In this document: positions 51,377 through 55,718 of the stretch, piece after piece
Position numbering within the stretch: the stretch's first letter is position 1
Layout: each line of letters begins with the position of its first letter
Origin: Candidatus Cloacimonadota bacterium
Lineage (GTDB): Bacteria > Cloacimonadota > Cloacimonadia > Cloacimonadales > Cloacimonadaceae
Length of the DNA stretch: 64,000 nt
Direction: 5' to 3'
NCBI GenBank assembly: GCA_012728875.1
Contig: JAAYEF010000029.1
Span: forward strand, 62,001 to 126,000
Position numbers and translations under genes: made by a program
The notes under the pieces: model-generated
Seen by the model: only the letters and a program-made list of their open reading frames with translations
What the model was told of the DNA's origin: nothing
Databases searched by the model: none

Positions 51377-52471
51377 ATGCGTGTTTCACACTTTTTCATC
51401 CTGATGGCAGCGCTGTTGCTTTTTGCCTGCAGTCCCACAAAACCGCCTCAAAAGGGCGAACTGCCCATCCGCATGGATTTGGCTCCCGCAGCTCAAATTG
51501 GCCAAACAGTCACCCGCGTGGCGGTTGGCATCACCAAAGGCGATTTCAGTCAAAACATGGACTTGAGTATCAGCGGCAACACTGCCGAAGGCGTCTTTGA
51601 AAGCTTGGAACCGGGACTTTACGCCATCGACGTTGCGGTTTACAACGGACAAAACCTGATCGCCACCGGGCAGGGGACCGGCTTGGTGAAACCTGGCGAA
51701 ACCACCACGGTCCACATAAATTTGCAATTTGTACCGGGCGGGTTGGAAGTGGTGATTGGCTGGGGTTTGCCTTTGGAAAACGCACGCCGTGTCCTCTTTT
51801 TGGGAAACAGTCTCACCTATTCCTATGGCGGTGTGGAAACCCATCTGCAAGCACTGTTGGAAGCCGCCAGACCGGACTGGAGAATGGTGTTTGAATCCCG
51901 CTCCCCCGGCGGCTACACCCTCCAAAACCATTTTAACGACCCCCAAACCCGGCAAGCCATCACAAACGGAAACTGGGACCTCGTGATCCTGCAGGAACAA
52001 AGCTCCCGCCCTGTCACGCATCCCCAGCTTTTTTATCAATATGCAGATTCCCTGAACTCCCTGATCCGCTCAAACGGCGCTCAAACCAGCTTTTACATGA
52101 CTTGGGCGCGGGGGGACAACCCCTCCATGTATCTGCCCCTGCGGAATGCATACAACTACATCGGCGCCTTTTTGGACAGTCCTGTGGTGCCAGCCGGAGT
52201 GGCTTTTCATAATGCGGCTGATTTACCCGAACTGCCCAGCCTCTTCGACCCCGACCTCCTTCATCCCAGCATCCACGGAACCTATCTGGTCGCCTGCCTC
52301 ATGATGGCAAAAATCTGGAATATCAACCCGATTGGAAACCCCTACCAACCCATGCAAATAGACGCTCACACCGCTTTGGCTTTGCAGCAGCTTGCCTGGA
52401 ACACCTTGCAAAATGAATATGGAAGCTTGAACAAAATTCCGCGCCTGCAGCCCCAACGCCGTGCCGCTTAA
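51377..52471 (+). CDS. SGNH-hydrolase-like lipoprotein
   Basis: A 364-residue lipoprotein (lipobox LFAC, cysteine 18). Residues about 30-125 are a beta-rich module of unknown function. Residues about 135-345 are an SGNH/GDSL hydrolase domain with the nucleophile S145 in LGNSLTYSYG and the D293-L-L-H296 dyad in DPDLLHPS. The block corresponding to the oxyanion asparagine lies in VILQEQS (about 203-209). This fold removes acyl or acetyl groups from sugars or lipids. The envelope location suggests a polysaccharide or lipid deacetylase, but the substrate is unknown. AAGGAA precedes the ATG. The gene is convergent with lpxK. Confidence 0.83.
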   Translation: MRVSHFFILMAALLLFACSPTKPPQKGELPIRMDLAPAAQIGQTVTRVAVGITKGDFSQNMDLSISGNTAEGVFESLEPGLYAIDVAVYNGQNLIATGQGTGLVKPGETTTVHINLQFVPGGLEVVIGWGLPLENARRVLFLGNSLTYSYGGVETHLQALLEAARPDWRMVFESRSPGGYTLQNHFNDPQTRQAITNGNWDLVILQEQSSRPVTHPQLFYQYADSLNSLIRSNGAQTSFYMTWARGDNPSMYLPLRNAYNYIGAFLDSPVVPAGVAFHNAADLPELPSLFDPDLLHPSIHGTYLVACLMMAKIWNINPIGNPYQPMQIDAHTALALQQLAWNTLQNEYGSLNKIPRLQPQRRAA

Positions 52472-52479
52472 GATCGGTC

Positions 52480-53517
52480 TTACAAAATCCTGTCTTGAAT
52501 CAAACGCTTGAGCCGACCCTCATCAGCACATTCCAACTTCATCCGCAGCGCAAGCGGATTCAAACACTCATGTAAAGCTAACTTGGACAAATCCTTCTCC
52601 GTGCAGAGCAGCACGGTTTCTGCGCCCAAAGCCTGAAAAACCTTTTCCAAATCCTCCCGCCGTGAAAAAGCATGGTGGTCCGCAAAGCGGAAATGCCTTT
52701 TCCAAGCCAAACCCAAGGCTCGAACGCTGTCTTCAAACGATTCCGGAACTGCGATGGAACTCAGCAAAACCAGTTCCCGATCCTTTAGTAAATCCAAAAA
52801 AACTGTATTTCCTTGTGTATCAACGAAGTCAACAGCTTTAAACTCACATTTCAGTGCGTTCCGAGCCGTCGCAGGCAAATTGCTTCCAAACGTGGTTCCG
52901 CCTTCTTTTTGAATCAAAACCAAGGCATCCGCACTTTTCAAAGCCGCAAGCGGTTCCCTCAGCCAGCCGGATGGAATCACGCGACCATTGCCCAGACCCA
53001 ATTTTGCGTCGAAGCAAACCAAATCAAGATCCCGGGCAATTTTCAGATGCTGGAATCCATCATCCAGAATCACCACATCCAGATCAGGAAATTCGCTTAA
53101 AAGCAGCGATACGGCAGAAACACGCCTCTTCCCCACCACCACGGGCATTCCGGGCAGTTTTTGAGCCAAAAGCTGGGCTTCGTCGCCTGAATCCTCCACT
53201 CCCAAAACTATTTCCCTGCGGTTTGAAACAAGGCTGGGAACATTTTCCCGACTTCCACCGCAGCCGCGATGGCTGAGCCCCACTTTCAGCCCCATTTCCT
53301 GGAGCAGGGTTGCCAAATATATGCAAAATGGAGTTTTACCGCTGCCCCCACTGCCCAGATTTCCCACGCTGATCACCTTGCACGGAGCCTGCCAACCCTT
53401 CATTCTGTTTCTGCGCAGGCTTTGCACAGCGGAGTTCAAGCCCCCCAAAGGCAGCAGCAGATCGCTCAATAAACTGCGTTTATGAAGGTGTTTTTGGGCC
53501 AGCTCCTGCAGGTCCAA
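52480..53517 (-). CDS. lpxK: Tetraacyldisaccharide 4'-kinase
   Basis: Phosphorylates the 4' position of the lipid A precursor at the inner membrane and so shows the cell has lipopolysaccharide. The 345-residue protein has the Walker A motif GNLGSGGSGKTP (52-63) and the LDDGFQH motif (about 155-161). The start is TTG 53517, placed directly after the receiver gene's stop. It carries SHRGCGG where many LpxK proteins have SRGYG. Other lipid A genes are not in the window. Confidence 0.92.
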   Translation of the reverse strand: MDLQELAQKHLHKRSLLSDLLLPLGGLNSAVQSLRRNRMKGWQAPCKVISVGNLGSGGSGKTPFCIYLATLLQEMGLKVGLSHRGCGGSRENVPSLVSNRREIVLGVEDSGDEAQLLAQKLPGMPVVVGKRRVSAVSLLLSEFPDLDVVILDDGFQHLKIARDLDLVCFDAKLGLGNGRVIPSGWLREPLAALKSADALVLIQKEGGTTFGSNLPATARNALKCEFKAVDFVDTQGNTVFLDLLKDRELVLLSSIAVPESFEDSVRALGLAWKRHFRFADHHAFSRREDLEKVFQALGAETVLLCTEKDLSKLALHECLNPLALRMKLECADEGRLKRLIQDRIL

Positions 53518-53901
53518 TCAACATTCCCCGCCAAATTTGGCATCAATCAAAGCCACGAGCCTTTCCACGTCGAAGGGTTTGAACAAAACGTCCTTCAAAC
53601 CATCGATTTTGGAACGCACCAAAACGTGGTCCGGATCGTAGCCAAAGCCGGTCATCATGATCACCGGAAGCGCGGGATCGTGGCCTTTCACGAGTGAAAA
53701 CAGTTCATAGCCATCCATATCAGGCATGGCAATGTCCGTGATCACGAGGTCAATATTTCCGGCAAGAACCTCGTGCAGGGCGTCCAAACCGTTGCTGAAA
53801 CCCAAAATCTGCCACTTTGGACGTAAAGCCCGCAGTTGCTCACGAAGCGATACAACAATGCCTTCCTCGTCGTCAACGATACAAATTGTTTTATTTGTCA
53901 A
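53518..53901 (-). CDS. Stand-alone response regulator receiver domain
   Basis: A 127-residue CheY-like protein with no output domain. The acidic pocket D10/D11, phosphoacceptor D56, T84 and K108 are all in place. The start is TTG 53901, with GGGAGGA six bases upstream; the TTGA overlaps the purC stop by four bases. A longer upstream frame would read through purC. No histidine kinase is nearby. It lies inside a purC-lpxK run and its start and end are locked to them, an unusual place for a signalling protein. Confidence 0.88.
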   Translation of the reverse strand: MTNKTICIVDDEEGIVVSLREQLRALRPKWQILGFSNGLDALHEVLAGNIDLVITDIAMPDMDGYELFSLVKGHDPALPVIMMTGFGYDPDHVLVRSKIDGLKDVLFKPFDVERLVALIDAKFGGEC

Positions 53902-54779
53902 TCGAGTCCTCCCAAAATTATATCTCGGACCCTGCAATAGCGGTCCATCGTTTTTTCAATGATCTGAGGCGGTAAAACCGGCGCAGGCGGCTGTTTGTTC
54001 CATCCGATTTCGATCAAATAATCCCGGATAATCTGTTTGTCGAAACTGGCGGGGGTTTTGCCAACCGTGTATTGCCCAAGATCCCAAAACCTTGATGAAT
54101 CCGGCGTCAATGCCTCATCCGCCAGGGTCAGTTCGCCACCTAGAAGTCCGAATTCGAACTTCGTATCCGCCAAAATGATGCCCTTTTCCTTCAGTTTGCG
54201 ATATGCCCAGTCATACAGTTCCAGCGCATATTTCCGCGCCAGATCGGCACTGGCGGGGTCCATCGAGTCCCGCATCTGCTGGAAACTGATGTTTTCATCG
54301 TGACCTTCCTCGGCTTTGGTGGAAGGAGTGAACAGCGCCTGGGGAAATTGTTCGCTTTCCTGCATTCCCGCTGGCAGTTCCAAGCCTCCAATGCTGTGGG
54401 AAACCTTATATTCCGCAAATGCCGAACCGCTCAAGTAGCCGCGCACAATGCATTCAAAGGGGATGATCTCCAGCTTTTTCACCAGCATGCTGCGATCCTT
54501 AAGATATTCCTTAAATGGTTGCAAAGCAGCCGGATAGGCGTCCACATCATCGGTGATGAAGTGGTTCGGAAGCAAGCCGGAACTCACCTTGAAAACATGC
54601 ACGGCAATTTGGTTCAAAATGGCGCCTTTGCCGGGCAGAGTTTGCGAAAAGACCACATCAAAGGCGGAAACGCGGTCGCTGGTGACAATCAACAGGGTTT
54701 CTCCGAGGTCAAAAATGTCCCGCACCTTCCCCTGATGGCAGCTCTTAACAATATCCAACTCTTTTATTCTCTTAAACAT
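53898..54779 (-). CDS. purC: Phosphoribosylaminoimidazole-succinocarboxamide synthase
   Basis: Joins aspartate to CAIR in purine synthesis. The 293-residue protein is of the longer (yeast-like) form, with GKVRDIFD at about 17-24, VTSDRVSAFD at about 32-41, ECIVRGYLSGS (about 108-118) and DTKFEFG (about 199-205). ATG 54779 starts four bases after the UvrC-like gene's stop. It overlaps the receiver gene by four bases. Confidence 0.95.
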   Translation of the reverse strand: MFKRIKELDIVKSCHQGKVRDIFDLGETLLIVTSDRVSAFDVVFSQTLPGKGAILNQIAVHVFKVSSGLLPNHFITDDVDAYPAALQPFKEYLKDRSMLVKKLEIIPFECIVRGYLSGSAFAEYKVSHSIGGLELPAGMQESEQFPQALFTPSTKAEEGHDENISFQQMRDSMDPASADLARKYALELYDWAYRKLKEKGIILADTKFEFGLLGGELTLADEALTPDSSRFWDLGQYTVGKTPASFDKQIIRDYLIEIGWNKQPPAPVLPPQIIEKTMDRYCRVRDIILGGLD

Positions 54780-54782
54780 ATC

Positions 54783-55718
54783 TCATCCTTTCCGATGTTT
54801 CACGTGATATTCATACAGTATACGTCTTTCATCCAAGTCATTTAGGTTGACCGCAAGCATCTCATTTTCACGGTAGGGGGTCTCTTCACGTGGAAAGTCG
54901 TGCCGCATACCCTGATGTTTGCACCAGCGCAAAAGACCGTTTTCCACCCCGAAATCCTCTTCCTCCCAGCTCAGGGACTTCGTCACATAAAGGAAATTCA
55001 GCCAGTCCCGATAGCTTTGCAAGCGCTCTATTTCTTCATCCAAGAGGTCTGCCTTGGCAAAGTCCAAATCATCAAAATATTTATCCCGTTCCTGGGCGAC
55101 CATCTCCAAAATGCCGTTTTGCGGATGCAGATAAGCCTCGTTCAGGAGGGTGTCAAGCTTCTTGAGTTCGGCGTCCTCGCCATTTTCAAGGGCTAAACAC
55201 CAGCCTTTACAGATGCCCTGATCCAGTTTTTCACAGGGGTAATTCTCTGTCTCGCAGTAGGGAAGCTTCAATATCCGCCCCAGGCTGTCCATCACGTCAT
55301 ACAGTAAAAAACGCCCGCGCCAGGGTCCGGCATAAGTCCAGTGGTCGTTGGTATCGTCTTTCAATGTCACAAAAGGGAAACGCCGTGCATCCAGAGCCAG
55401 ATAGGCGTAGTCCCGGCTGGGCTGCATCATCTGCTGGTGTGGAACGCTGTTTTTCCCCAGAAAGATTTTCAGGCGAATGAGCGCATCCACACTGCGTTCC
55501 TGGCTTTCCACGTCCAATGAATCTGCCAGCGCCGCCACCTCCGCAAAACGGGTGTCAATCTCAGCTTTTTTGCGGATGAAATTCAGGCGCTGAGCCAGGT
55601 TTGGCGTGATTCCGCACCACAGCGGCTCTTCGCCCTGGCGAAAACAAAAAAACACCCAGCCGCCGGGCAATTCAAAGCTCTCGGAAATTCGGGTTCCGTC
55701 CCATTTCAGCTTGATCAT
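54783..55718 (-). CDS. UvrC amino-half-like protein with degenerate GIY-YIG site
   Basis: A 311-residue protein whose layout matches the first half of UvrC or the Cho endonuclease. Residues about 19-48 follow the GIY-YIG fold (GGWVFFCFRQGEEPLWCGIT with AQRL), but the lysine after YxG is an isoleucine here and the metal-binding glutamate of the ALLLEN segment is missing (ALIRLK). Then come GPWRGRFLLYDVMDSL (as in UvrC GPY) and four cysteines C155, C162, C170 and C174, in which the C-x7-C-x3-C spacing equals that of the [4Fe-4S] site of UvrC. A UVR-like segment (DLDFAKADLLDEEIERL) is at about 217-233. The nuclease half is absent. It may bind DNA without cutting. First gene of the operon with purC, three bases away. 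Confidence 0.78.
   Translation of the reverse strand: MIKLKWDGTRISESFELPGGWVFFCFRQGEEPLWCGITPNLAQRLNFIRKKAEIDTRFAEVAALADSLDVESQERSVDALIRLKIFLGKNSVPHQQMMQPSRDYAYLALDARRFPFVTLKDDTNDHWTYAGPWRGRFLLYDVMDSLGRILKLPYCETENYPCEKLDQGICKGWCLALENGEDAELKKLDTLLNEAYLHPQNGILEMVAQERDKYFDDLDFAKADLLDEEIERLQSYRDWLNFLYVTKSLSWEEEDFGVENGLLRWCKHQGMRHDFPREETPYRENEMLAVNLNDLDERRILYEYHVKHRKG

Follow-up and report, generated by a model that had tools for sequence, protein, structure and literature searches.

Results

A UvrC- and Cho-like gene heads an operon-like run

The stretch of DNA analyzed here (the window; 64,000 nucleotides) comes from a genome of Candidatus Cloacimonadota, family Cloacimonadaceae. An intact open reading frame with an ATG start on its reverse strand (54783..55718) encodes a UvrC-N/Cho-like protein of 311 amino acids, P0001, hereafter the pseudo-nuclease. 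Four parts can be delimited in the protein, all encoded on the same strand: a degenerate GIY-YIG domain (amino acids 14–100; 55419..55679), placed by alignment to T. maritima UvrC and by PDB profile matches; a four-cysteine loop, which is a putative Fe-S site (C155, C162, C170 and C174; 55197..55256), and a UVR-derived helical hairpin that includes F220 (amino acids 203–236; 55011..55112), both placed by alignment to E. coli UvrC; and a small C-terminal domain (amino acids 245–311; 54786..54986) with the family motif NG...YRxNExLA...DE.

The stop codon of the pseudo-nuclease gene is separated by 3 bases from the start of purC, encoding SAICAR synthetase (53898..54779, reverse strand; Pfam SAICAR_synt, E = 1.1e-70). 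This is followed on the same strand by a gene for a receiver-only response regulator (53518..53901; Pfam Response_reg, E = 6.1e-23) and by lpxK (52480..53517; Pfam LpxK, E = 3.8e-76), which ends the run. The receiver gene probably starts at the TTG at 53901, which overlaps the purC stop codon and lies behind a GGAGG sequence. An initial annotation of the locus had the gene heading an operon with purC and lpxK; its place at the head of an operon-like run that includes purC is borne out, whereas lpxK comes fourth, after the receiver gene that had been omitted. A gene on the forward strand (51377-52471) converges on lpxK; it encodes a DUF4886 protein (E = 1.5e-10) with a lipoprotein-like N-terminus.

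The pseudo-nuclease is a degenerate homolog of UvrC and Cho

Searches against NCBIfam matched P0001 to PRK07883, a DEDD exonuclease-GIY-YIG fusion, within its UvrC-like part (E = 2.5e-9), and to the UvrC model TIGR00194 (E = 3.3e-9). The TIGR00194 score of 36 bits lies below the UvrC equivalog threshold (curated cut-off, 285 bits). For the family, no NCBIfam model does better than PRK07883 (NF005906), again in the UvrC-like part, but the pseudo-nuclease lacks its exonuclease domain and scores 36 against a cut-off of 495 bits. The NCBIfam Cho model NF007833 was absent among the P0001 matches at E up to 1. Pfam gave nothing significant for P0001 and no match for any of 53 family members, and phmmer with P0001 alone against the PDB returned chance matches only. 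When a profile of 53 relatives was compared with the PDB, solved UvrC GIY-YIG domains ranked at the top (1yd6, E = 7.7e-10). Homology to the amino half of UvrC, as first proposed, is thus significant by both NCBIfam models and by the profile comparison.

A structure of P0001 predicted by AlphaFold2 from the 53-relative alignment had a mean pLDDT of 92.6 and a pTM of 0.88. The best Foldseek matches of this model were UvrC GIY-YIG domains, with a probability of 1.00 and an rmsd of 1.4–2.4 Å; the best rmsd, 1.4 Å, extends over 78 columns, the E-values are weak (0.02–0.4) and the match spans the GIY-YIG domain only. The prediction therefore returned the UvrC GIY-YIG fold rather than an unrelated one. 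The pseudo-nuclease family is a single-copy UvrC/Cho homolog without a name.

We compared the family with full-length UvrC and with stand-alone Cho-like GIY-YIG proteins. Genes for the latter occur in a few genomes of the order (L092:2888-3838, reverse; L093:2861-3877, reverse; L094:2956-3936, forward), and these three proteins have all seven GIY-YIG catalytic residues. Alignment by hhalign with these Cho-like proteins ran from end to end over 298 columns (E = 1.7e-24) and included the C-terminal domain, which is collinear with the Cho-like C-terminus and has invariant residues G261, E286 and A289. By contrast, the alignment with the host's own UvrC (E = 5.1e-14) ended before the RNase H half. 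In view of this collinearity, the pseudo-nuclease is more aptly regarded as a stand-alone Cho-like protein that has degenerated than as a truncated UvrC; the label of a UvrC amino half holds with respect to homology but not with respect to architecture. Like the pseudo-nuclease, the Cho-like proteins, E. coli Cho included, have the same length class, a GIY-YIG domain and the cysteine loop, but they retain 6–7 of seven catalytic residues and are mostly basic. The amino half of UvrC (TIGR00194) shares with the pseudo-nuclease the order of GIY-YIG domain, four cysteines and UVR position, whereas UvrC has catalytic residues, a positive charge and RNase H and HhH domains, all of which the pseudo-nuclease lacks.

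P0001 ends after the small C-terminal domain, and the single RNase H match of the genome belongs to a separate uvrC, so that the RNase H half is indeed missing. This uvrC (L055:845-2656), with a product of 603 amino acids, is found beyond the window, some 60 kb distant on the contig that carries the pseudo-nuclease gene. UvrB, identified by its UVR match and its length, is encoded by a 672-amino-acid frame on another contig. With complete UvrC and UvrB in the genome, the pseudo-nuclease is not the host's UvrC.

Catalytic residues have been lost throughout the family

We scored seven GIY-YIG catalytic residues (Y19, Y29, K32, R39, Y43, E76 and N88) in an alignment of 75 family members, 22 UvrCs, Cho-like proteins and the T. 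maritima UvrC domain. At these positions P0001 has F, W, I, R, I, L and Q, so that R39 is the sole catalytic residue left and six of the seven are gone; the replacement of the lysine and glutamate noticed at the outset corresponds to K32 to Ile and E76 to Leu. All seven residues were kept in 22 of 22 UvrCs and 6–7 in the stand-alone Cho-like proteins, as against 0–5 in the family. None of the 75 members combines K32, E76, Y19 and R39. The loss is family-wide yet stepwise: members in family f9 retain more residues, and some of these keep both K32 and E76 together with a basic charge. Next to the lost E76, K84 is nearly invariant (72/75) and new relative to UvrC.

We considered whether the protein could be an active nuclease with shifted or substitute residues. 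Its fold is retained, and 4 or 5 of the catalytic residues persist in seven members; P0001, however, has one of seven, and its charge has changed as well (see below). Shifted positions do not account for the loss, as a tolerance of one column either way recovered both K and E in only 14 of 75 members and a full set in none. We consider an active enzyme very unlikely for the family, and the initial reading of a non-cutting UvrC-N homolog is strongly supported by the alignment, with no member carrying a full catalytic set, and by the selection acting on the gene. Basic f9 members with K32 and E76 may nevertheless possess residual activity or DNA binding.

The gene is conserved across the order and under purifying selection

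A family-grade match was found by a search of the phylum in 60 of 62 good genomes of Cloacimonadales (at least 90% complete and at most 5% contaminated), whereas the nine good genomes of the sister order had UvrC only. The two exceptions (G035 and G070) also have no match to the receiver signature described below, so that an assembly gap is possible in both. Named relatives all belong to Candidatus Cloacimonadota, including Syntrophosphaera thermopropionivorans. A first contig scan with a single protein yielded no matches. The contig scan that covered 84,980 species used two peptide patterns that reach close relatives only, so that the family may also occur outside the phylum. P0001 also had no PADLOC, PHROG or plasmid match and only weak phage matches (E = 1e-3 or worse), and we rejected the idea of a defense or phage protein.

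Close pairs gave dN/dS values of 0.07–0.21 (dS approaches saturation in some of them), so the gene evolves under purifying selection. In an unrooted quick maximum-likelihood tree, a branch with an SH-aLRT support of 100 separates the family from the remaining sequences, and another with 99 separates the UvrCs. As the UvrCs of the phylum form their own clade that excludes the family in this tree, a recent duplicate of the phylum's uvrC was rejected. Positions near-invariant in the family but foreign to UvrC are K84, R136, F137, D141, N285 and E297. A decaying pseudogene, or a functionless remnant of a uvrC duplication, could likewise be expected to lack catalytic residues and an RNase H half. 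Against this stand the near-universal presence in the good genomes of the order, the low dN/dS, the confident fold and the separation from the phylum's UvrCs; selection and conservation rule this explanation out for practical purposes.

The cysteine site and the hairpin are retained, but the charge is inverted

The cysteines of P0001 are spaced C155-x6-C162-x7-C170-x3-C174 and align with C154, C166, C174 and C178 of E. coli UvrC. All four are retained in 71 of 75 family members, and the site is thus intact as originally described; three of the remaining members (L052, L053 and L054) have no loop, and L047 has one cysteine. We infer from this alignment that P0001 binds a [4Fe-4S] cluster, although the four members without the full set indicate that the cluster is not required everywhere.

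The hairpin also preserves part of its ancestral sequence. F220 aligns with F223 of E. coli UvrC and is Phe in 75 of 75 members, and the LEF-x-KA pattern persists; the RD of the UVR motif is lost, and the hairpin is recognized neither by Pfam UVR nor by a UVR model derived from the phylum's UvrCs. The UVR-like segment has thus been kept only in part. One function that such a hairpin could serve is in nucleotide excision repair (NER): the protein would dock on UvrB, or mimic DNA, and compete with or assist UvrC without cutting. The invariant Phe and the persisting pattern, the presence of UvrB and UvrC in the host genome, and an acidic charge that could suit DNA mimicry all agree with this proposal. 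Set against it are the lost RD, the failure of the UVR profiles and the lack of linkage to uvrA, uvrB or uvrC in the loci of the order examined, and we regard a role as NER modulator as unlikely.

The region common with UvrC (amino acids 14–245) differs in charge. In the family it has a median pI of 5.07 and a net charge of -4.0 per 100 amino acids, whereas in the UvrCs, mostly of the same phylum, it has a pI of 9.18–9.96 (median 9.73) and a net charge of +7.3 per 100 amino acids. The Fe-S loop and the hairpin take part in this change, being positive in UvrC and negative in the family; exceptions are some f9 members, which are still basic. These features bear on the suggestion, made at the outset, of a DNA-damage scaffold or sensor that does not cut, that is, a DNA-binding Fe-S protein recognizing DNA structures. 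The UvrC-like fold and the cysteine loop are compatible with it, as are the few basic f9 members. The UvrC Fe-S cluster matters for complexes with dsDNA, according to the statement in PMC9426483 that cites earlier work. However, the charge inversion argues against a simple DNA-binding scaffold, the HhH domain is absent and the UVR segment is degenerate. The non-cutting part of the suggestion thus stands, while DNA scaffolding or sensing appears quite unlikely.

A receiver protein is the steadiest neighbor

With the same orientation and a downstream position in 74 of 75 loci, the receiver gene is the steadiest neighbor of the pseudo-nuclease gene. By comparison, purC adjoins the pseudo-nuclease gene in 56 of 75 loci, and lpxK is conserved in family f1 only. 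The f9 loci have no purC, and the pseudo-nuclease and receiver genes adjoin or nearly so, with one gene between them in L040. The receiver retains the acidic pocket, the phospho-acceptor Asp, the Thr and the Lys, together with the signature MMTGFGYDPNHV; receivers with MMTGFGYDPNHV occur throughout the phylum at about one per genome. In L048 and L103, the receivers lack the conserved lysine of KPF, their GFGYDP signature is incomplete, and they may be degenerate.

Further along the f9 run come a peptidase-like gene, mazG, a gene for a membrane histidine kinase, and nnr; the kinase apart, these names come from reading the sequences. The kinase is possibly the cognate kinase of the receiver. A 40% identical homolog of the f9 operon kinase (L100:7082-8314, forward) is found elsewhere in the host genome of P0001 (G000:C5:44464-45951).

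The sister order (G107-G124, loci L163-L177) has purC, the receiver gene and a gene of 106–112 amino acids, convergent with full-length uvrC and without the pseudo-nuclease. This makes it probable that the pairing of purC with the receiver gene is the older arrangement, and linkage to the pseudo-nuclease gene is in itself no proof of a partnership. The idea that the receiver is a partner exclusive to the pseudo-nuclease is weakened by the same observation. In G037, moreover, the two genes lie on different contigs; both points make the partnership uncertain.

Discussion

Our preferred explanation, which we hold with about as much confidence as doubt, is that the pseudo-nuclease is a cluster-bearing, non-cutting Cho-like protein that works as an adaptor or regulator by contacting other proteins, the receiver most probably among them. 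This reading draws together the catalytic loss, the preserved cysteines, purifying selection, order-wide presence, the separate UvrC and UvrB, monophyly, the inverted charge and the linkage to the receiver gene. A stand-alone Cho-like ancestor would have lost its active site early in Cloacimonadales, and the protein would have been retained as a non-cutter with its GIY-YIG domain, four-cysteine loop, UVR-derived hairpin and small C-terminal domain. It would bind a [4Fe-4S] cluster and act as a cluster-dependent adaptor or regulator, with the co-transcribed receiver-only response regulator as the likeliest partner, and phosphorylation of the receiver may switch the contact, which might ultimately act on repair or on another process. 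A precedent for a role without cutting is H. pylori UvrC, which has a nuclease-independent role in microimports (PMC9426483). That protein is full-length with intact sites, and its likeness to the pseudo-nuclease is limited to a role that does not depend on the nuclease site. A bolder proposal is that the Fe-S pseudo-nuclease is switched by, or reports to, a dedicated receiver and so links the redox or DNA-damage state to two-component signaling in Cloacimonadales, which would make this descendant of a UvrC/Cho repair nuclease a signaling protein of a new class; we judge this unlikely at present.

A search of the open-licence PMC literature found no such family named, which is weak evidence of absence. 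Catalytically dead relatives of a repair nuclease that are conserved across a whole bacterial order appear to be undescribed. If the pseudo-nuclease does carry a cluster, the Fe-S site of UvrC would have a role separable from cutting, a point relevant to its function within UvrC. The receiver protein offers a concrete candidate partner, in a phylum of which few members have been cultured.
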